The notes under the pieces were generated by a model, which saw nothing but the letters and a program-made list of their open reading frames with translations, was not told where the DNA came from and searched no databases. A program made the position numbers and the translations under genes. Positions 1,136-43,117 of a DNA stretch of 46,305 bases are shown here, one piece after another. Origin of the DNA: Candidatus Edwardsbacteria bacterium (GTDB taxonomy: Bacteria > Edwardsbacteria > AC1 > EtOH8); NCBI GenBank assembly GCA_018821925.1, contig JAHJLF010000014.1, positions 1-46,305 on the forward strand, in the 5' to 3' direction. Numbering within the stretch: position 1 is the first letter of the stretch; every line of letters starts with the position of its first letter.

Positions 1136-1181
1136 CGAACAGTTTTAAATAAGGAACATTTCAAACAATAAGGGTAATTTG

Positions 1182-2072
1182 ATGCTCAGAATATTAATAA
1201 TGGTAATGGCCCTGCTCTTCATATCCCCGCTGCTGGAAGGCATCCTCCGCAAATTCAAGGCGCTGGTGCATTCCCGGATCGGGCCGCCGTTGCTGCAGCC
1301 CTACTGGGACACCCTCAAGCTGCTGGGCAAGGATGATGTCCGTTCTCCCCATTCCATGCTGGGGGCGCTGCCGGCCTACTTAAGCCTGGCCGCCGTCCTG
1401 ATGGCCGGGCTGCTGGTGCCGGTGGGCGGAAGCGCGGCTTTTGCCGGCGGCGATATGATACTGTTCCTCTATATGATAGGCTTCGCCTCGGTGTGCGTGA
1501 TGCTGGCCGGGATGGACTCCGGCTCGCCCTACGCCTTTCTGGGCACTGCCCGGGAGATGATGACCTCCCTGACGGTGGAGCCGGTGCTGTTCATCACCCT
1601 GATCACGGCGGCCCTGAAGACCCACAGCTTCCGCTTTTCCGACATGGCCTTCTACCAGCAGTCCTCCGGCACCTCACTTTCCATGATCATCTCCGGCATC
1701 GCGCTGTTATTGGGCATCCAGGCCCAGCTGTCCAAACTGCCTTTCGACATCCCCGAGGCCGAGGGCGAGTTGATGGGCGGACCGTTCATCGAGATCTCCG
1801 GGCCGACCTTCGCCCTGTACCGCTGGGGCTTCATCATCAAACAGCTGATATTCTCCCTGATCCTGGTGCAGATATTCTTCCCCTGGACCTTCGGCCTCTC
1901 CGGCCTGTGGGCGGTGCTGGCACAGATCGCCAAGATATTGGTGGTGGTCCTGCTGGTCGGGCTGGTGGACGTGGTCAATCCCCGTCTGCGGATAGACCAG
2001 GCCATGATCTATTATTTCGGCGTGGTGCTGACGGCTTTGGTGGGACTGGTGTTTGCGTTGGTAGGAGCGTAA
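1182..2072 (+). CDS. NuoH/HyfC/EchB-like membrane subunit of a group-4 hydrogenase-type complex
   Basis: This is the integral membrane subunit that links the soluble electron-transfer arm to the proton-pumping arm in complex I and membrane-bound [NiFe] hydrogenases (NuoH, HycD/HyfC, EchB). It has about eight hydrophobic segments over 296 residues, the usual length for hydrogenase versions. Family features are visible: the HSRIGPP segment near residue 31, the A-R-E-M-M segment near residue 122, and the conserved acidic loop F-D-I-P-E-A-E-G-E near residue 188. The ATG at 1182 is preferred over an adjacent in-frame TTG because AGGG lies a suitable distance upstream. It is the first gene of the operon and follows AT-rich DNA. 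NuoH-like family membership is secure; a hydrogenase rather than a complex-I or related role is inferred from the neighbours. Confidence 0.93.
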   Translation: MLRILIMVMALLFISPLLEGILRKFKALVHSRIGPPLLQPYWDTLKLLGKDDVRSPHSMLGALPAYLSLAAVLMAGLLVPVGGSAAFAGGDMILFLYMIGFASVCVMLAGMDSGSPYAFLGTAREMMTSLTVEPVLFITLITAALKTHSFRFSDMAFYQQSSGTSLSMIISGIALLLGIQAQLSKLPFDIPEAEGELMGGPFIEISGPTFALYRWGFIIKQLIFSLILVQIFFPWTFGLSGLWAVLAQIAKILVVVLLVGLVDVVNPRLRIDQAMIYYFGVVLTALVGLVFALVGA

Positions 2073-2172
2073 ATTAGTCATTAGATAATAGGGATTGGAT
2101 TATAGGGGAACCATTAATATCTTCGTGTGCTCTGTGGTAAAAAGCAAGTAACTCTTAACAGAAGAATTTTAT
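2073..2172 (+). other. 100-base spacer between NuoH-like and ferredoxin genes
   Basis: No gene is seen here. The spacer is AT-richer than its neighbours and contains a short run (TTCGTGTGCTCTGTGGT) of the kind seen in dispersed non-coding repeats. The spacing is unusually wide for subunits of one complex. No inverted repeat like those around the four-helix-bundle genes was found. Confidence 0.3.
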
Positions 2173-2625
2173 ATGATACTATCAAAATTAAAAGAAGCCC
2201 TCATTTGCTTCAAGAACCTGCGGGTCACCTTCCCCTATCCGCTGAAGCGGAATATCGAGGCCCTTCCGGTGGAGGGTTTCCGGGGCAAGCTGACCATAGA
2301 CGTGGCCAAGTGTATCGGCTGCGCCGGCTGCGCCAATGTCTGCCCCTCGCGGCTGATAGTGATCACCGACCGCCAAGCTGTCCGCAAGCTGGACTTCTAC
2401 CTGGAGCGCTGCACCTACTGCGGCCGCTGCGCCGATGTCTGCCCCGAGAAGGCCATCACCATGACCCAGGAATTCGAAACCGCCACCAACGACGTCCACA
2501 ACGACATGCATATCTCGGCCGAGGTTTACATGGGGACCTGCCAGCGCTGCGGCCGGTGCTTTGAGACCCAGACCATCATAGACAAAATGATGACGGTGGG
2601 GTTCAGGAACGGGACGGGGGCGTAA
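2173..2625 (+). CDS. NuoI/HyfH/EchF-like 2x[4Fe-4S] ferredoxin subunit
   Basis: This 150-residue iron-sulfur protein should pass electrons between a soluble donor or acceptor and the NuoB-like subunit on the cytoplasmic face of the membrane. Two complete CxxCxxCxxxCP motifs are visible, starting at Cys47 (CIGCAGCANVCP) and Cys80 (CTYCGRCADVCP), enough for two [4Fe-4S] clusters. A third, partial motif, CQRCGRC, lies near residue 123 and could bind an extra metal site; many NuoI-type proteins have a C-terminal CxxCxxC of this type. The N-terminal part before the clusters fits the membrane-docking helix of NuoI/HycF. The gene lies between the NuoH-like and NuoK-like genes, separated from the latter by a four-helix-bundle gene. 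Confidence 0.92.
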   Translation: MILSKLKEALICFKNLRVTFPYPLKRNIEALPVEGFRGKLTIDVAKCIGCAGCANVCPSRLIVITDRQAVRKLDFYLERCTYCGRCADVCPEKAITMTQEFETATNDVHNDMHISAEVYMGTCQRCGRCFETQTIIDKMMTVGFRNGTGA

Positions 2626-2654
2626 CGACCGTAGGGAGTTGGAGAAGCGCAATA

Positions 2655-3105
2655 GAAAGTCTGGCGATGTCTGAAATGCCAGACAGGATGGCATGATGAT
2701 GATTAATTGTGTATACGAAAGGATGGAGTAAATATGGAACTGAAGTTTCAGAAACTGGAAGTATGGAATATTTCACTGGAATGCATCGATAAAGTGTACG
2801 CTTTGCTGGAGAAGTATCCCAAGTCCGAAGAATATATCCTGAAACAGCAAGGAAAGAGATCGGTAACTTCAATTGCCCTGAACATTGCGGAAGGAAGCTG
2901 TAAGCATACCAAAAAAGATTTCGCTCATTATATCAATACTGCTGTCGGCTCTTTGGTGGAAACAATAGCGAATCTCAAAATCGGCGTCGCCCGAAAATAT
3001 ATTTCCCCGGCGGAGTTTAAAGGAGCAGAACCATTGTTAGACAAATTATATTTCAAGCTTCTGGCGTTGGAAAAATCGCTGCGGGCATAACCTCGCCAGA
3101 CCTTC
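2655..3105 (+). other. putative IVS-like element 1: four-helix-bundle gene between inverted repeats
   Basis: The four-helix-bundle gene here is bracketed by a 15-nt inverted repeat. Bases 2655-2669 match the reverse complement of 3091-3105 at 13 of 15 positions, with a perfect 9-nt core (GTCTGGCGA / TCGCCAGAC). The right arm starts directly after the stop codon. The left arm can also fold locally with GCCAGAC at 2678-2684. A 7-nt sequence, CGCAATA, occurs just left of the left arm (2648-2654) and again at 3122-3128, which could be a target duplication or chance. The layout matches that of 23S rRNA intervening sequences, where a four-helix-bundle ORF sits in a stem, but here it lies in a protein operon. 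The element status is inferred. Confidence 0.5.
2734..3090 (+). CDS. four helix bundle protein (23S rRNA intervening-sequence protein family), copy 1
   Basis: This small, soluble, alpha-helical protein of about 118 residues belongs to the four helix bundle / 'S23' family (PF05635 type), which also includes Avd, the accessory protein of diversity-generating retroelements. The family is basic and forms pentamers; its cellular role is poorly known. Family marks are the opening 'F-Q-K-L-E-V-W' segment, the 'K-R-S-V-T-S-I-A-L-N-I-A-E-G' helix near residue 50, and a late leucine-rich helix. The ATG at 2734 is chosen because AGGATGGAG precedes it; an upstream in-frame TTG at 2707 adds nine residues without homology. 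It splits two respiratory-complex genes and is one of three diverged copies in this operon, each within inverted repeats. Confidence 0.88.
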   Translation: MELKFQKLEVWNISLECIDKVYALLEKYPKSEEYILKQQGKRSVTSIALNIAEGSCKHTKKDFAHYINTAVGSLVETIANLKIGVARKYISPAEFKGAEPLLDKLYFKLLALEKSLRA

Positions 3106-3223
3106 AGAGGGACATCTCTGACGCAATATCATCGATTGGCTAAAGAAGCAGGCATCTCAAACAGTGCACGTCATATATCGTTAACTCCTCAAACATTATT
3201 TAAGCTTTTATCAAGAAGAGAGT

Positions 3224-3886
3224 ATGGGTGATTTAATCACAACCTTAATGGCCTGCCACTTCATTGCTTCGGTGGGTGCGGCCGAGATCAGGAATTTAAA
3301 GACAGCCACCCTGTTCCTGTTGGTGCAGTCGCTGCTGCTGTCGTTCATCATCGTGGCCTTTGCAGAGAAAAGCCAGAACTACACCCTGTACTGGTGGGCG
3401 GTAATGACCTTCATCACCAAGGTGATAATCATCCCCGGGCTGTTGTGGTGGCACATCAAACGCACCGAGTTCATTGAGGTAAAGCCTCTGGTGAGCTTCG
3501 TGGTGTCGTTCATAATCCTGTCCGTATTCCTGATCGTCTTCTACCAGATGATCCGCACCTATGTGGGCTTCATCGCCCCGACGGTGGAGGCCACCATCGA
3601 GCCGGCCCGCTCGTCGCTGGCCCTGGCCTTCACCATCTTTGTACTGGGACTGTACGTGCTGGTGGTCCACCGTGATGCGGTCAAGATAATCATCGGCCTG
3701 CACCTGATAGAGAACGGCGTCCACCTGGCCCTGGTGACCCTGGTGCCCAAGCTTCCGGTGACCACCATCCTGGGGATAGTCTCCAACGTAGTGGTGGCCG
3801 CGGTGATGCTGCTGTTCCTCACCGAGAGCATCTACAAGGCCTTCGGCAGCGCTGATACCATGAAGCTGTCCAGCCTGAAACGATAG
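3224..3886 (+). CDS. HyfE/NuoK-like membrane subunit
   Basis: This 220-residue, very hydrophobic protein is the hydrogenase-4 component E type, whose C-terminal half resembles NuoK/MrpC. It belongs to the membrane arm, next to the antiporter-like subunit, and is expected to take part in ion translocation. About six to seven membrane helices are visible. The segment 'G-L-H-L-I-E-N-G-V-H' near residue 155 carries the buried glutamate region typical of HyfE/NuoK. AGAAGAGAG just before the ATG at 3224 is a convincing ribosome-binding site. It follows the first four-helix-bundle element and is only 14 bases from the cNMP-domain gene downstream, so those two are surely co-transcribed. Confidence 0.9.
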   Translation: MGDLITTLMACHFIASVGAAEIRNLKTATLFLLVQSLLLSFIIVAFAEKSQNYTLYWWAVMTFITKVIIIPGLLWWHIKRTEFIEVKPLVSFVVSFIILSVFLIVFYQMIRTYVGFIAPTVEATIEPARSSLALAFTIFVLGLYVLVVHRDAVKIIIGLHLIENGVHLALVTLVPKLPVTTILGIVSNVVVAAVMLLFLTESIYKAFGSADTMKLSSLKR

Positions 3887-3900
3887 AAAAGGAGCATAAA

Positions 3901-4377
3901 ATGGTCAACAAGGATGTTTTGAAAAAGCTGAACTTCTTCAGCGATTTCTCCGATGCCGAGCTGGAGAAACTGGCTCCGCTGTTCAGCCAGCGCAGTTATA
4001 GCGCCGATCAGGTAATGATCCCGGAACGGGCGCCCAACAAAGAGATGATAATCCTGGTGGAGGGCAAGGTGGCGGTGGAGGTGGCCACCAGCCTTTCCGA
4101 AAATGCCGACCGTCTGGTGCTGACCATGGAGATCAGCCCCGGCCGCATCATCGAATGGTCCGACGCCTTCGACCTGGTGCAGAGCGGCGGCACCGCCTCG
4201 GCCCGGGCGGTCAGCGACGTCAAAGCGCTGGTGGCCGAGGGGCAGCAGGTATGTCAACTGTGCACCACTGAGCCCCAGATGGGGATCAAAATGCTGCAGC
4301 TGATACTGCAGGTGCTGGCCTCGCGATTAAAAGATACCAGGATGCAATTGGTCAGCATGGCCGCTCAGAGTCAATAA
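3901..4377 (+). CDS. stand-alone cyclic-nucleotide-binding (Crp-type) domain protein
   Basis: This 158-residue protein begins with the opening of the cNMP-binding family ('L-K-K-L-N-F-F-S-D-F-S-D-A-E-L' near residues 7-21) and continues with the beta-roll segment ending in 'I-L-V-E-G-K-V-A-V'. The typical phosphate-binding cassette (G-E-x-x-x-x-R-x-A/S) is replaced by 'R-I-I-E-W-S-D-A-F', so nucleotide binding is doubtful. After the roll there is a helix but no helix-turn-helix domain, so it is not a complete Crp/Fnr regulator. It contains the CQLC motif near residues 117-120. It lies 14 bases after the HyfE-like gene and before the HyfF-like gene, so a regulatory or structural role for the membrane complex is plausible but unproven. 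Confidence 0.8.
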   Translation: MVNKDVLKKLNFFSDFSDAELEKLAPLFSQRSYSADQVMIPERAPNKEMIILVEGKVAVEVATSLSENADRLVLTMEISPGRIIEWSDAFDLVQSGGTASARAVSDVKALVAEGQQVCQLCTTEPQMGIKMLQLILQVLASRLKDTRMQLVSMAAQSQ

Positions 4378-4384
4378 GTTGTTA

Positions 4385-4480
4385 GTCATCGCGAGAAGAT
4401 TATCGTTGATGGGCAAACGAAGCGATCCAGGCATTTTAGATTGCTTCGTCAGATAGTCGGGGAAGCCGTCTCGCAATGAC
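4385..4480. repeat. interspersed imperfect palindrome (GTCAT...ATGAC type), 96 nt
   Basis: The spacer between the cNMP-domain gene and the HyfF-like gene is mostly an imperfect palindrome. The ends GTCATCGCGAG and CTCGCAATGAC pair with one mismatch, and inside GAAGCGATC pairs with GATTGCTTC, also with one mismatch. Elements with these ends are common as dispersed non-coding repeats in many bacterial genomes. Three other elements with the same GTCAT/ATGAC ends lie at 23905-23960, 42395-42541 and 43974-44069. Placed inside an operon, the transcript would fold here and could separate expression of the two sides. Confidence 0.7.
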
Positions 4481-4537
4481 CAAAGACAGCGACAAGATAA
4501 TTTAATAAGCATCAAAGCAATAAAGTAGAGTAAGTAT

Positions 4538-6064
4538 ATGGTTGTAACTATCAATCCCATGGTGGTGTCGATACTGCCGTTCCTGGTTTTCATGGTCCCC
4601 TTGGTGTTCGGCGGGCTGATATTCGCCCTGGGCCGGTTGGGAAAGATCGTTCGCCATGGCCTGGCTTTGACCGGTATAGGCCTGACCCTGCTGATCGCCA
4701 TCATGATGACCGTCCGGGTTTTAAACGGAGAGGTGCTCACCTGGTGGGGCAACAATTTCTACGTGGACGGGCTGTCCACCCTGATGGAGCTGGCGGCCAG
4801 CGTGATGGGGGTGATAGTGGTGGTCTACTCCATGAAATATTTCGGGGCCAAGACCGAGATAGAGGAGGCCCACCCTTACACCAGCATGACCACTTACTAC
4901 GGGCAGATCCTGGTCTTTCTGGGCCTGATGAACTGGACCTGCGCCACCAATAACATCATCATGCTGTATGTCTCTCTGGAGTTCACCACCCTGGCCACCG
5001 TTTTTCTGGTGACCTTCCACTGGAACAAACCGGCCCTGGAGGCGGGATATAAATACCTGTTGCTGGTTACGGTAGGCGTGGTGTTCGCACTGTTGGGCTC
5101 GGTGCTGTTGTATTCGGCGGCCACCCCGTTCCTGCCGGTCTCCCGGGTGCTGCTGTTGACCGAGCTGGGGACCATCGCCACCAAGATACCCAGCAACATC
5201 GTGCTGCTGGCCGCCGCCTTTATGGTGGTGGGTTTCGGAACCAAGGCCGGGCTGGTGCCCTTTCACGCCTGGCTGCCCGACGCCCACGCCGAGGCTCCGG
5301 CTCCGGTGTCGGCTTTGTTGTCCGGCATAGTCATCAAGGTGGGGGCCTACGCTTTGGCTAGGACCATCTCGGTGTTCGCCCCGCACTACGGCACCATTCC
5401 CCTGTTCATCGCCATCCTCTGCTCCATCTCCATGGTCGTGGGCATGATGATGGCCATGACCCAGAACGACCTCAAGCGGATGCTGGCCTATTCCTCGGTG
5501 GCCCAGATTGCCTATGTCATCGAGGGGCTGGGCATGGGCACCTACCTGGGGATCTACGGCGGGCTGATGCACCTGATCAACCACACTATTATCAAGGGAC
5601 TGCTGTTCCTGGCGGTGGGAGCCATCATCTATTCGGCCGGAAAACGCAAGATATCCGAGCTATCCAAAGTAAAATTCAAAATGCCCCTGACGGCCTTCGC
5701 CTTTTTTGTGGGGGTGTTTGCACTTTCGGGGATGCCGCCTTTTAACGGTTTCGTTTCCAAGTTTACCCTGTTCCTGGCATTGGGCGAGGCCAAACTGATG
5801 TGGGCGGCCATCATCGGCATCATCACCTCGCTGTTCACCCTGGTCTGCTTCTTTCGGGCCGGGTATAAGATCTTCTGGTCGGAAAAGGAAGTTCACGCAG
5901 TCGGCGCCGAGGCCACCACCGCCACCGAGGTTCCGGCGGCCATGTGGGTGGGAATGGTCCTGCTGGCTGTCGCGGCCATCGTGCTGGGGGTGTTTCCCCA
6001 GATAATGCATCCCCTGTTGGACAGCGCCACCAAGTGCATTTTGAGGATATTGATCGGGGGCTAA
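4538..6064 (+). CDS. HyfF/NuoN-like proton-translocating antiporter-type subunit
   Basis: This 508-residue membrane protein belongs to the NuoL/M/N-MrpA/D family, closest in layout to hydrogenase-4 subunit F. It is the ion pump of the membrane arm. About fourteen hydrophobic segments are visible. Key family residues can be seen: the helix-5 glutamate in 'Y-V-S-L-E-F' near residue 147, the helix-7 lysine in 'F-G-T-K-A-G-L-V-P-F-H-A-W-L-P-D' near residue 236, and 'K-R-M-L-A-Y-S-S' near residue 313. Only one antiporter-like subunit is encoded here, as in simple Ech-type complexes, versus three in complex I and hydrogenase-4. Its 3' end is followed at once by the second four-helix-bundle element. 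Confidence 0.93.
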   Translation: MVVTINPMVVSILPFLVFMVPLVFGGLIFALGRLGKIVRHGLALTGIGLTLLIAIMMTVRVLNGEVLTWWGNNFYVDGLSTLMELAASVMGVIVVVYSMKYFGAKTEIEEAHPYTSMTTYYGQILVFLGLMNWTCATNNIIMLYVSLEFTTLATVFLVTFHWNKPALEAGYKYLLLVTVGVVFALLGSVLLYSAATPFLPVSRVLLLTELGTIATKIPSNIVLLAAAFMVVGFGTKAGLVPFHAWLPDAHAEAPAPVSALLSGIVIKVGAYALARTISVFAPHYGTIPLFIAILCSISMVVGMMMAMTQNDLKRMLAYSSVAQIAYVIEGLGMGTYLGIYGGLMHLINHTIIKGLLFLAVGAIIYSAGKRKISELSKVKFKMPLTAFAFFVGVFALSGMPPFNGFVSKFTLFLALGEAKLMWAAIIGIITSLFTLVCFFRAGYKIFWSEKEVHAVGAEATTATEVPAAMWVGMVLLAVAAIVLGVFPQIMHPLLDSATKCILRILIGG

Positions 6065-6100
6065 CTGTAATTGTATTACATTGTTTAACAGGCTAAACAA

Positions 6101-6531
6101 GTTTAAGAAGTTTAAGTTATGGCAAAATCTTTTGAAGAGTTGAAAATATGGCAACAGGCCAGAGAATTGACAAATATTGTTTATAAACTAACCGGACAAA
6201 ACAAGTTTCTCAAAGATAATAGCCTGAATAACCAAATGCGAAGAGCTGCTGTATCAATAATGGCTAATATTGCCGAGGGTTTTGAACGGGGAGGAAATAC
6301 AGAGTTTATCCAGTTTTTATACATAGCGAAAAGCTCTTGTGGCGAGTTAAGAAGCCATTTTGTAGTGGCGTTAGATCAGCAATATATCACTGATACGGAT
6401 TTTAACTCGTCAAGAGAAAAAGCCGCTGGACTTTCAGCTATGATAAGCAACATGATTACATATTTGAAGAAAAGCAAAATTAAAGGCGAGAAATACCTTT
6501 AACCCTTTTGAACATATTAAACTTCTTAAAC
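6101..6531 (+). other. putative IVS-like element 2: four-helix-bundle gene between perfect 15-nt inverted repeats
   Basis: GTTTAAGAAGTTTAA at 6101-6115 is the exact reverse complement of TTAAACTTCTTAAAC at 6517-6531. Between them lies one four-helix-bundle gene, beginning 3 bases after the left arm and ending 14 bases before the right arm. Just outside the left arm is a second small hairpin, TTGTTTA at 6081-6087 pairing with TAAACAA at 6094-6100. The 431-nt unit separates the HyfF-like gene from the LivK-like gene. It has the same design as the units at 2655-3105 and 7775-8249 but different repeat sequence. In a transcript the arms would bring both ends of the unit together in a stem. Confidence 0.6.
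6119..6502 (+). CDS. four helix bundle protein, copy 2
   Basis: This 127-residue member of the four helix bundle (S23/IVP/Avd-like) family begins with 'S-F-E-E-L-K-I-W-Q-Q-A-R-E-L' and has the diagnostic helix 'Q-M-R-R-A-A-V-S-I-M-A-N-I-A-E-G-F-E-R-G' near residues 40-59, then 'F-L-Y-I-A-K-S-S-C-G-E-L-R-S'. It is the most typical copy of the three. It is clearly diverged from copies 1 and 3, so the three are not a recent tandem duplication. The protein is basic and lacks a signal or membrane segment. There is no good ribosome-binding site; the A/T-rich left inverted-repeat arm ends 3 bases before the ATG, so translation may depend on whether the stem is formed. Confidence 0.9.
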   Translation: MAKSFEELKIWQQARELTNIVYKLTGQNKFLKDNSLNNQMRRAAVSIMANIAEGFERGGNTEFIQFLYIAKSSCGELRSHFVVALDQQYITDTDFNSSREKAAGLSAMISNMITYLKKSKIKGEKYL

Positions 6532-6548
6532 ATACAGATAGGTATAAA

Positions 6549-7742
6549 ATGAAAAAGGCACTTGTTACGGTAACAATTTTACTGGCCGCAACGACATTAT
6601 TGGTTCTCTCGGGCTGCGAGGGCGGCGGGGAACAGATTCGGATCGGGGTGGCCGCCCCGCTGACCGGAGAGCAGGCCAAGGCCGGACAGGATGTCCTGCA
6701 TGGCGTCCAGCTGGCGGTCTCCGAATGGAATGCCAAGGGCGGGGTGCTGGGCAAAAGGATAGTGATCATCGCCGGGGATGACCGGGCCGATGAGAAGGAA
6801 GCATATATCGTGGCCGAGAAGCTGGCCAATCAGCGCGTCTGCGGAATAGTCGGGCACTACAACAGCCACTGCTCCATCGCCGGCAGCCGGATATATAATC
6901 AAAGAATGCTTCCGCAGATCTCTCCGTCCTCCACCAATCCCAAATTCACCGAGCAGGGATTTATTAATGTGTTCCGCACCTGCGGGCGCGATGACCAGCA
7001 GGGCCGGGTGGCGGCCGATTTCGCGATCAATAACCTGAAGGTAAAAAAGGTGGCCCTCTTTAACGATGGCACCACCTATGGCCGCGGACTTACCGAGGAG
7101 TTCAAGAAATTGATCATCGCTTCGATACAGCTGCCGGCCGGTTCCAGAGGCAAAAACGCCATTCCGGCAGTTGAGATCGTGGCCGAAGCCGAGCTGCAGC
7201 CGGTCAATGAGGGCCAGGCCCCCGGCTATGACGCAGTGCTGGACCCGCTGATCAGCATTCAGCCGGATCTGGTCTACTTCGGCGGCAGCTATCCCGAAGG
7301 AGCGGTGCTGGTGCGGAAGATCAAGGAGCGCAAGTTAAAGAGCGTCTTCATGGCCGGCGATGCCATTGCCAATTCGGTATATCTAAAAGCCGGGGGCATT
7401 GCCACGGAGGGCACCTATTTCACCTTCGGTCCGGCGGTGGAGGACATGCCCGAGGCCGGCAGGTTCTACGGCTCGTTCAAGGCCCGCTACGGCGAGATCG
7501 GGCCGTATTCGGTCTATTCCTATGACGCCGCCATGGTGCTGTTGCAGGCCATCGAAAAGGCCGGGATCACCGCCGGGGATTCGCTGGTCAGCGTGCTGCA
7601 TTCCCAGAAGTTCTCCGGGGCCCTGGGCGAGATTGATTTCAATGCGAAGGGCGACATCACGGCCGCGCCGTATGTCATCTGGAGGGTCAAGGGCGGGGAG
7701 TTTATTCCGGTGAAAGAGGGGGCGGAAAATACTGACAAGTAG
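6549..7742 (+). CDS. LivK-like substrate-binding lipoprotein (type 1 periplasmic binding fold)
   Basis: This 397-residue protein belongs to the branched-chain amino acid/amide binding family of ABC transporters (Peripla_BP_6 type). The N terminus is a lipoprotein signal peptide with lipobox L-S-G-C at Cys23, so it should be membrane-anchored outside the cytoplasm. 'I-R-I-G-V-A-A-P-L-T-G' near residue 30 and 'S-P-S-S-T-N-P' near 125 are typical of the ligand-binding fold. No LivH/LivM permease or LivG/LivF ATPase gene is in the window. Instead it lies between the HyfF-like and NuoB-like genes, flanked on both sides by four-helix-bundle elements. It may be an orphan binding protein or a sensor; a direct link to the respiratory complex is only inferred. 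Confidence 0.88.
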   Translation: MKKALVTVTILLAATTLLVLSGCEGGGEQIRIGVAAPLTGEQAKAGQDVLHGVQLAVSEWNAKGGVLGKRIVIIAGDDRADEKEAYIVAEKLANQRVCGIVGHYNSHCSIAGSRIYNQRMLPQISPSSTNPKFTEQGFINVFRTCGRDDQQGRVAADFAINNLKVKKVALFNDGTTYGRGLTEEFKKLIIASIQLPAGSRGKNAIPAVEIVAEAELQPVNEGQAPGYDAVLDPLISIQPDLVYFGGSYPEGAVLVRKIKERKLKSVFMAGDAIANSVYLKAGGIATEGTYFTFGPAVEDMPEAGRFYGSFKARYGEIGPYSVYSYDAAMVLLQAIEKAGITAGDSLVSVLHSQKFSGALGEIDFNAKGDITAAPYVIWRVKGGEFIPVKEGAENTDK

Positions 7743-7774
7743 ACAAGCAAGGGGTTAAGCAGGTATACGATGGA

Positions 7775-8249
7775 GATACAATGGGGATACGATTGTTATA
7801 ATTGGCGATGAGGTGCGCAAAGATGGGCGGGGAGATAAAAGATTTTACAGATCTTGAAATATATCAACTGGCCCTGGGTTTAGCTGATTGGGTTTATGAC
7901 ATTTCTGCAGAATTTCCCAAGGAGGAAATTTTTAATTTGACTTCCCAGATGAGAAGATCGGCGGTTTCCGTAGGGGCCAACATAGCCGAAGGCTTTGGCA
8001 GATATACTTATAAAGAAAGAACTCGCTTTTGTATTTATTCCCGCGGCTCATTAGCAGAAACAAAAAGCCATGTATTATTCAGTCACCGAAGGAAATACAT
8101 ATCAGATATTCAGTTAGCGGAATATTCAGCTAAACATAAAAATCTTTCCGTAAAACTTAACAATTATATTAGTTCTCTGAATAAGAAAGCAAACGGCCCT
8201 GAATAACAAAAGCATAACCATTGTATCACAATAGGAATTTCAATCGTAT
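7775..8249 (+). other. putative IVS-like element 3: four-helix-bundle gene between two pairs of inverted repeats
   Basis: Two perfect complementary pairs bracket the third four-helix-bundle gene: GATACAATGG (7775-7784) with CCATTGTATC (8218-8227), and ATACGATTG (7787-7795) with CAATCGTAT (8241-8249). The order is A-B ... A'-B', so the two stems are not nested; they would be alternative, or pseudoknotted. The left side is built from three imperfect copies of an 11-nt unit (ATACRATGGRG type) starting at 7765. TTAAGC occurs outside both ends (near 7754 and 8265). The unit is about 475 nt, close to the other two, and separates the LivK-like gene from the NuoB-like gene. Confidence 0.5.
7823..8206 (+). 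CDS. four helix bundle protein, copy 3
   Basis: This is the third four-helix-bundle (S23/IVP-like) gene of the operon, about 127 residues from the ATG at 7823. That ATG is preferred to the in-frame ATG at 7808 and TTG at 7802 because GAGGTG lies 7 bases upstream and the next residues, 'I-K-D-F-T-D-L-E-I-Y-Q-L-A', are where family homology begins. The core helix 'Q-M-R-R-S-A-V-S-V-G-A-N-I-A-E-G-F-G-R' is intact. The later helix has 'G-S-L-A-E-T-K-S-H' as expected, but the following loop (S-H-R-R-K-Y-I-S) is more basic than usual. It is closer in style to copy 2 than to copy 1. Function is unknown. Confidence 0.88.
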   Translation: MGGEIKDFTDLEIYQLALGLADWVYDISAEFPKEEIFNLTSQMRRSAVSVGANIAEGFGRYTYKERTRFCIYSRGSLAETKSHVLFSHRRKYISDIQLAEYSAKHKNLSVKLNNYISSLNKKANGPE

Positions 8250-8283
8250 TGCCATCACAGTATATTAAGCCAGAAAGTAGAAT

Positions 8284-8766
8284 ATGTTCCTAAAAAAACT
8301 TTGCGCCAAAGCGTTCACTAAATCGCTGTGGATCTACCACATCAACACCGGGTCGTGCAACGGCTGTGACATCGAGATCGTGGACGTGATCACGCCCTAC
8401 TACGATGCCGAACGGTTCGGGATCAAGCTGGCCGGCTCTCCCCGCCATGCCGACATCATGCTGGTTTCCGGGCCGGTCACCCGGCAGGCCCTGCCGTCAT
8501 TAAAGCGGGCCTATGCCGCCATTCCCGATCCCAAGCTGGTGATCGTGGTGGGCTCCTGCGGGTGCGGTGGAAATATGTGGTTCGATACTTACAACGTGAT
8601 TGGCGGGGTGGACAAGGTGATACCGGTCAACTTCTATATACCGGGCTGCCCGCCCCGGCCCGAGGCCATCCTTTACGGAGTGGCGGTGGCCCTGGGTCTG
8701 GCTCCCAAGAAGGTGCAGGCGGAGGTTTCGGCTGAAGGGCCGATCCGGGAGGGAATGTGGAAATGA
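8284..8766 (+). CDS. NuoB/HyfI/EchC-like small subunit with one [4Fe-4S] cluster
   Basis: This 160-residue protein is the electron-transfer small subunit of group-4 hydrogenase or complex I (HycG/HyfI, EchC, NuoB). It normally docks against the large catalytic subunit and holds the proximal [4Fe-4S] cluster. Visible ligands are Cys25 and Cys28 in 'G-S-C-N-G-C-D-I-E', Cys92 (or Cys94) in 'G-S-C-G-C-G-G', and Cys122 in 'I-P-G-C-P-P-R-P-E'. The CxxC spacing is that of hydrogenases; complex I NuoB has adjacent cysteines. Oddly, no gene for the partner large subunit (HyfG/EchE/NuoD) or for a NuoC-like subunit lies in the window. Its TGA overlaps the ATG of the next gene (ATGA), so the two are translationally coupled. 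Confidence 0.92.
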   Translation: MFLKKLCAKAFTKSLWIYHINTGSCNGCDIEIVDVITPYYDAERFGIKLAGSPRHADIMLVSGPVTRQALPSLKRAYAAIPDPKLVIVVGSCGCGGNMWFDTYNVIGGVDKVIPVNFYIPGCPPRPEAILYGVAVALGLAPKKVQAEVSAEGPIREGMWK

Positions 8767-42321: not shown

Positions 42322-42394
42322 GGTATTAGTCCTTTTTGTTATCAACCAGAGGGGTTTATTGATTGCTTACCATAACAGTTTAATTATGTCAGTT

Positions 42395-42541
42395 CGTCAT
42401 TCCCGTCCTTCGGCCTTGCTCAGGATATAAACTCCGGCGGGCCTGTCCGCCGGAGTTCGCCGATGGCGAACGAAGGAGGAAATCTAGTATAAACCTTCTG
42501 GATACCTGCCTTCGCAGGTATGACAAGAAGTCGCAATGACG
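42395..42541. repeat. compound interspersed hairpin repeat (CGTCAT...ATGACG type), about 147 nt
   Basis: Between the NTF2-like and GNAT genes lies a run of hairpins: an outer CCTTCG/CGAAGG pair, a perfect 9-bp stem CTCCGGCGG/CCGCCGGAG, TTCGCC/GGCGAA, and CCTGC/GCAGG. It begins CGTCAT at 42395, has an internal ATGAC at 42520 and ends ATGACG at 42541. It appears to be one dispersed repeat with a second one nested within it. The rest of the spacer holds no gene. Confidence 0.65.
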
Positions 42542-42574
42542 CATTTTTGTCAGCATCATGAGCGATAAGTGCAA

Positions 42575-43117
42575 CTACTTGCCGCACTCATTAAGATTTA
42601 TCCAAAAGCGCAGGATATTTTTCTCGGTGGAGTCCTCTATAACAATGTTCTCAAGGATTCCGCCGTTATTTTCGATCACTTTCCGAGAGGGGAGGTTGCC
42701 CTCGTTGCAAGTGACCAAGACGCGGTGGGTCCCGTTCTTTCGGGCCTCGTTCAAGGTTAGCCGCAGTATTTCCGTAGCGTATCCCTTCCGGCGATGTTCG
42801 GGGGACACGTCAAAGCCGATATGCCCGCCGATGTTCAATAAATACTCGTTGAGGCTAAGCCTGAGCCTACTGTTGCCTATAAGAACATTGTCTTCGTTCA
42901 GGAACCAGAAGGATATTTGCGTGACCTTTCCCGGCGGCAGGTTGTCCGGGTCCTCATAGCGGTTGAGTGCGGCTATATATTCCCGGAAAGTCTGGCCATC
43001 TTTTAACTGATGCCGGTCCTCATCGTGCCGGCGGTAGGTTGCGGAGAATGCCAGGAACTGGCGCTCAGAAACCTCATTTAATCTGATATGATTAAGCATA
43101 TTAGTGTCTTGTTTCAT
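42575..43117 (-). CDS. GNAT-family N-acetyltransferase
   Basis: This 180-residue protein has the GNAT fold. Motif A for acetyl-CoA binding is visible: 'I-G-F-D-V-S-P-E-H-R-R-K-G-Y-A-T-E-I-L-R-L-T-L' near 99-122, and motif B 'R-V-L-V-T-C-N-E-G-N-L-P-S-R-K-V-I-E-N-N-G-G' near 132-153 with the Asn-x-x-S element. It is similar in layout to YjdJ/Acetyltransf_3-like enzymes that act on small molecules or antibiotics; the substrate is unknown. Its ATG overlaps the stop of the PP-loop gene (ATGA), so the two form an operon. Confidence 0.91.
   Translation of the reverse strand: MKQDTNMLNHIRLNEVSERQFLAFSATYRRHDEDRHQLKDGQTFREYIAALNRYEDPDNLPPGKVTQISFWFLNEDNVLIGNSRLRLSLNEYLLNIGGHIGFDVSPEHRRKGYATEILRLTLNEARKNGTHRVLVTCNEGNLPSRKVIENNGGILENIVIEDSTEKNILRFWINLNECGK

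Follow-up and report, generated by a model that had tools for sequence, protein, structure and literature searches.

Why should a respiratory operon be interrupted three times by small genes of a family named for rRNA insertions? In the 46,305-nucleotide (nt) stretch of Candidatus Edwardsbacteria DNA analyzed here (contig JAHJLF010000014.1 of assembly GCA_018821925.1; below, the window), an operon of hydrogenase/NDH-like genes is broken by three S23/IVP genes, each enclosed by short complementary arms. To our knowledge, genes of this family (PF05635) have no known function. A domain-wide sample of 389 genomes included 163 (about four of ten) with at least one member of the family, yet despite the family's name 0 of 40 S23 loci lay in rRNA in an Rfam search. 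Armed S23 genes are apparently a widespread, undescribed kind of hairpin element, and their arms, which are usually inverted arrays of short repeats, offer a strong clue to what the S23 protein touches, namely, its own repeats.

Three armed S23/IVP units in one operon

All three window genes belong to the family by profile search, with PF05635 scores of 88 to 117 bits (cut-off 33.8) and TIGR02436 scores of 82 to 110 bits (cut-off 24), and they lie on the forward strand together with their arms. Gene a occupies positions 2707 to 3090, with an ATG start at 2734 (PF05635 E value, 5e-25). Its left arm (2655 to 2670) pairs with its right arm (3090 to 3105) at 14 of 16 nt (88%), no repeat period is clear, and 29 pairs link both flanks in the in silico minimum-free-energy fold. 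Gene b (6119 to 6502; E value, 6e-34), for which the closest solved structure is XCC0516 (2gsc; E value, 6e-12), lies between a left arm at 6082 to 6115, a AAGTTTAAG tandem of period 9, and a right arm at 6499 to 6532. These arms are complementary over 34 nt (71%), within which 6101 to 6115 and 6517 to 6531 match perfectly over 15 nt; the outer portion of the right arm (TTTCTTAAACATA-like) is also found in the S23-less spacer of a relative, G002. Gene c (7802 to 8206; E value, 2e-32) follows a left arm at 7765 to 7799 that reads ATACGATGGAG ATACAATGGGG ATACGATTGTT, with a period of 11, and its right arm (8203 to 8255) consists of two stretches, 8203 to 8232 and 8237 to 8255. The main pairing, 7770 to 7799 with 8203 to 8232 (30 nt, 77%), is accompanied by two others, 7781 to 7795 with 8241 to 8255 (15 nt, 87%) and 7765 to 7777 with 8237 to 8249 (13 nt, 85%). 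Across the three units, 23 to 38 pairs link the two flanks of each in the in silico folds.

The original prediction, made from the letters of the window, described three arm-flanked S23/IVP units within one respiratory operon, and both the profile matches and the hydrogenase/NDH-like neighbors bear this out. The arms lie where it placed them, and those of units b and c proved longer than it had supposed (34 and 30 nt). It likened the units to the intervening sequences (IVSs) of 23S rRNA. As in an IVS, terminal complementary sequences close the open reading frame (ORF) in a loop; the units sit in a protein operon and the window has no Rfam rRNA match, so the rRNA location of an IVS is missing.

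Flanking arms were also expected at other family members of this genome (G000), which has six in all. They were not lacking there: the arm test gave a p value of 0.03 at C75 and 0.07 at C17, and C72 was filtered out for want of a complete gene start. When upstream and downstream flanks were mismatched as a control, the empirical p value was ~0.02 for each of the three window units. Singly, such values are suggestive, and the arm signal is decisive only across the whole family.

Arm pairing across bacteria

Arm pairing was scored as the best ungapped complementarity between the 80 to 90 nt before and after each gene, with all mismatched flank pairs as a control that preserves composition. The first set comprised 97 loci from 23 genomes, mostly of the window's own family; the second, 80 loci in regions from ~60 other genomes; and the third, 75 loci on named GTDB contigs ranging from Deltaproteobacteria, Chloroflexi, Bacteroidetes, and Cyanobacteria to Patescibacteria. 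A score of at least 10 was reached at 51 of the 97 loci in set 1 (2.5 expected), 42 of the 80 in set 2 (2.1 expected), and 52 of the 75 in set 3 (4.0 expected), and 15 loci of set 2 scored at least 20 against an expectation of 0.03. Among control genes separated by more than 350 nt from the nearest S23 gene, 1.4% scored at least 10 and none reached 14, whereas a heptad run was present in 10.9% and either signal in 11.8%. These controls were kept at a distance because genes flanking S23 elements share their arms (31% with either signal). The inverted-armed S23 arrangement is domain-wide, spans many phyla, and is not special to the window operon. Relatives from the same family carry 7 to 29 S23 members per genome.

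Repeat arrays within the arms

Most often, an arm is built of degenerate tandem repeats with a period of 7, and the two arms form inverted arrays. In each of the three sets, the autocorrelation of both arms has peaks at lags of 7, 14, and 21, and the lag-7 z values, upstream and downstream, are 16 and 12 (set 1), 21 and 23 (set 2), and 22 and 21 (set 3). Arrays hold about 4 to 5 repeats, a length partly bounded by the 80- to 90-nt flank window, and a minority of elements have a period of 8 to 11. For example, the array at C75 reads AGCGAGT AGCGGAA AGCGTAT AGCG, and the arms at other loci contain GGTCGAGA/GGTCAAGA-type runs (L158) or CGGGTAT CGGGTTT (L204). Each element has a repeat sequence of its own, in agreement with the earlier remark that the arms of the three window units differ from one another.

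Mismatches are distributed unevenly along the repeat (z of 9.7 under a rough null). Across five genomes at the nfeD|SPFH site, AGCG positions were variable at 0 of 16 per arm, compared with 8 of 12 and 7 of 9 at the other positions. That every array contains a contiguous 4-nt core was considered and rejected, there being no excess over permuted phases, and we claim only that conservation is non-uniform.

Patchy presence at fixed sites in relatives

S23 units are present sporadically at seven fixed sites across ten relatives, as IVSs are in related strains. Parsimony requires 15 changes over the seven sites, on a host tree of which only the topology was used, because a wrong HyfC frame lengthens the branch of G001. 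Four of the sites lie in the interrupted operon (window positions 1179 to 8766, forward strand), which encodes HyfC/NuoH-like, Fer4, HyfE-like, cNMP-like, HyfF-like, ABC-type binding protein, and NuoB-like products and keeps its gene order in nine relatives; by profile, the neighboring genes are NADHdh/HyfC-like, Fer4, Oxidored_q2-type (HyfE-like), HyfF/Mrp-type, periplasmic binding protein, and NuoB-like. The Fer4|HyfE spacer holds an S23 gene in G000, G003, and G008, with the ortholog of gene a matching at 94% in G003 and 78% in G008; the same spacer is without it in six other relatives and holds an unrelated insert in G009. Gene b, in the HyfF|PBP6 spacer, is found in G000 only, and no S23 gene is present in the eight relatives in which that spacer is readable. 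In the PBP6|NuoB spacer, gene c has homologs in G003, G009, and G005 and is absent from G001, G002, and G006. Conversely, the HyfC|Fer4 spacer holds an S23 gene in every relative with the operon except G000 itself, in which this spacer (window positions 2070 to 2190) is without the unit that all nine relatives carry there. Three further sites, nfeD|SPFH, GNAT|trpS, and ridA|dagK, are likewise patchy. Junction-matched absence in relatives, which the original prediction proposed to look for, does exist.

A full element runs from the upstream stop codon, which it sometimes overlaps, and ends just short of the following ribosome-binding site. At most sites, alleles with and without the unit differ over this entire spacer, so the units have not merely been added to a spacer that is unchanged in other respects. 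No target duplication was seen by eye at the empty and full sites read, but the spacers there are too diverged for a firm negative. S23-less alleles often retain remnants of the element: at nfeD|SPFH, G008 has a five-repeat array and G003 has the right arm with the last S23 codons, and at the trpS site of G006 the S23 gene is absent and the right arm remains. Other S23-less alleles hold an unrelated hairpin of the CCACAAAGACACAAAGGCAC...GTGCCTTGGTGG type.

Hairpins of the CCACAAAGACACAAAGGCAC...GTGCCTTGGTGG type stand where sister species hold S23 units at L235, L237, L239, L037, L039, and L040, and similar CACAAAGGCAC repeats flank the S23 gene in L136. In relatives, S23-less inserts of 1 to 1.8 kb are also found in this operon (L036, L037, and L041 [HyfF|PBP6 spacer]), and the binding-protein gene itself is broken by ~0.8 kb in G009 (L042, 7934 to 8720). 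Throughout the genome of G017, partial S23 matches occur in pairs, ~150 to 200 nt apart and on opposite strands (e.g., C7:104028-104554, C2:122174-122711, and C3:436717-437275).

Constraint on the protein and turnover of the arms

Orthologous S23 genes have ratios of nonsynonymous to synonymous substitution (dN/dS) of 0.05 to 0.08, comparable to 0.052 for HyfE; the value for gene a against G003 is 0.056. Given this purifying selection, it is very likely that the S23 protein is produced and benefits either itself or its host. The arms turn over faster than the gene, and 97%-identical S23 copies in the single-contig genome G251 differ in heptad make-up. Over 120 pairs of homologous elements, which are not independent, pairing scored 12.1 with an element's own arms and 9.0 with swapped arms, and own exceeded swapped 92 to 21. 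At ridA|dagK, the arms of G006 are wholly different from those of G001 and G003 yet self-pairing (14 to 15 for own arms, 5.5 to 6.8 for swapped arms), and both arms are exchanged together at this site. Change of the arms as matched pairs is the outcome predicted by selection on pairing.

Probable hairpin elements and competing explanations

Each unit is probably an IVS-like RNA hairpin element that resides in a transcribed spacer rather than in rRNA. It consists of one S23/IVP gene between two short repeat arrays, mutually inverted. In the transcript, base pairing between the arrays would form a stem that carries the S23 ORF in its loop. RNase III may then cut the stem and excise the unit, as it does with rRNA IVSs, leaving the flanking cistrons intact, and an occupant of the whole spacer would thereby be cheap for the host. 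The S23 protein, which is a pentamer in its solved relatives (five chains each in 2gsc and 2rld), might bind its own repeats, and spread would be slow and patchy, with recombination among strains and, now and then, a new insertion. Retro-mobility was discarded as a candidate: a resident reverse transcriptase is not needed, because G000 has no RVT_1 match. The hairpin model predicts a class of mRNA processing sites within operons. Of the IVS-like element in mRNA spacers that was first proposed, the inverted arms and the operon location stand, now joined by the paired turnover of the arms; the proposal missed the tandem-repeat arrays, the domain-wide range, the S23-less arrays, and the tRNA and CRISPR (clustered regularly interspaced short palindromic repeat) contexts.

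In favor of the hairpin-element interpretation are the family-wide arm pairing, the period-7 arrays, the constrained heptad positions, the joint turnover of the arms, the low dN/dS, the absences and solo arms at fixed sites, the heptamers of the Coxiella IVS, and the orientation of the genes: by crude gene calls, S23 genes between two co-directional genes were co-directional with them 100 times and opposed 10 times. Several points weigh against it. Window units a, b, and c are not built on heptads, arm pairing at the threshold used is lacking at roughly one-third to one-half of S23 genes, and 16 to 33% have neither arm pairing nor a heptad signal. Other spacers of these genomes hold S23-less tandem arrays at similar density. 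The orientation bias is also usual for ordinary operon genes. Arm and protein similarity among paralogs correlate with a rho of 0.12; we do not claim that arm sequence follows protein sequence, and specificity of the protein for its repeats is thus unproven. The predicted hairpin processing is drawn from DNA sequence.

The patchy presence at fixed sites would also suit a DNA-level miniature mobile element, with the inverted arrays as transposon-like ends moved in trans and S23 as accessory or cargo. The nearly identical S23 copies that G251 carries at separate CRISPR-associated sites, and S23-less arrays that look like non-autonomous copies, point the same way. However, the ends are not shared but differ between elements, paralogs included; the units have no transposase inside, are strongly biased toward host gene orientation, and have arms that take up the spacer between stop codon and ribosome-binding site, and target duplication was not seen in the spacers read, diverged as these are. 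We regard this explanation as unlikely. More improbable still is that S23 genes are ordinary small operon genes whose spacers gather slippage tandem repeats and hairpins, the link to S23 being one of shared tolerance. S23-less arrays and hairpins are indeed common in other spacers here, and heptad runs occur near control genes at the rate given above, but the pairing is specific to an element's own flanks (51 of 97 loci against 2.5 when mismatched, and 1.4% of controls) and survives sequence change, which already disfavors such an account.

An autoregulated RNA-binding module overlaps with the hairpin-element interpretation and differs in purpose. Here, S23 would bind the repeats of its own mRNA in a TRAP-like manner, one repeat per pentamer subunit, and tune the operon as a domesticated rather than selfish gene. 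Purifying selection on S23 and the core held within each repeat favor this, as does the correspondence of 4 to 5 repeats per array to the five chains of 2gsc and 2rld and the reported homopentamer (PMC4990558). Patchiness in one operon across sister species speaks against a needed regulator, however, the arm-protein correlation among paralogs is weak, and array length is partly set by the flank window; we consider the module a tentative alternative, somewhat doubtful as a full account. About equally tentative is a broader extension of the hairpin-element interpretation, in which S23/IVP genes would be bacteria-wide, self-contained RNA hairpin elements that insert into or persist in transcribed spacers (mRNA, tRNA, and CRISPR), whose ring protein would read a private heptad code, one repeat per subunit, and of which the rRNA IVS would be a special case. 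Possibly, rRNA IVSs are a less common setting of an element that lives in spacers generally, and some of the orphan heptanucleotide repeats of bacterial spacers may be explained by the arrays.

Relation to known systems

The protein family and the plan of an armed ORF are known from rRNA IVSs; what appears to be new is where the elements live, their repeat arrays, and how widely they occur. The 23S rRNA IVSs of Coxiella and Leptospira resemble the units in protein family, size (~430 to 475 nt), placement of the ORF in the loop of an arm stem, and sporadic distribution, but the units described here lie in protein-operon spacers, between tRNAs, and in or adjoining CRISPR arrays. The RNase III-cut Coxiella IVS has three tandem GACAGAT heptamers ahead of its S23 ORF; this ORF is reported to be in decay and probably untranslated (PMC4990558), unlike the S23 genes here, which are under purifying selection. 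Tandem heptamers by the ORF, which among IVSs are described for Coxiella only, were seen domain-wide and at C75, whereas the periods of the window units are ~9, ~11, or none clear. Beyond the Coxiella IVS, the open-access literature (subscription papers being outside its scope) yielded no S23 or four-helix-bundle gene with heptamers or inverted repeats.

Avd, the accessory protein of diversity-generating retroelements, is a four-helix-bundle relative, and gene a matches it weakly in NCBIfam (19.9 bits; cut-off 80); Avd is encoded with a reverse transcriptase and a template repeat, whereas G000, with its six S23 genes, has no RVT_1 reverse transcriptase match. Repetitive extragenic palindromic (REP) sequences, REPINs, and REPtrons (PMC3116915) share with S23 elements their intergenic palindromic repeats, a linked gene in inverted repeats, and solo repeats, but S23 elements have no HUH transposase and their repeats are private rather than shared genome-wide. 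Short tandem repeats in stems or spacers are also known from the P6b stem of the cyanobacterial trnL intron and from TAACTGA repeats, although the available parts of PMC4476775 and PMC4679880 contain no mention of an S23 gene that we could find and present the TAACTGA arrays as direct repeats without predicted structure.

Genomic contexts and other features of the window

Outside protein operons, one element sits between two tRNA genes (L025), and G251 has three S23 copies in or adjoining CRISPR arrays. The G251 elements at L130 (1427 to 1924), L326, and L348 are 97% identical, and a second, S23-less hairpin (CAGCAAAGCTGGAGTGAAAGATAAAGTG...CACTTTATCTTTGGCTCCGCC) follows half a CRISPR repeat several times in that genome. 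A figure of CRISPR-associated genes in a CRISPR survey names the 23S rRNA IVP (PMC10910872). Membership in a defense system was rejected, as there was no PADLOC match.

Two other features of the window stand apart from the S23 units. Just ahead of the HyfC-like gene, positions 25 to 1135 contain two AT-rich ORFs with no NCBIfam match and a composition unlike that of the operon. A 256-nt intergenic stretch at 42322 to 42577 has strong inverted repeats (CGTCATTCCCG..., CTCCGGCGGGCCTGTCCGCCGGAG) and probably represents another repeat family.

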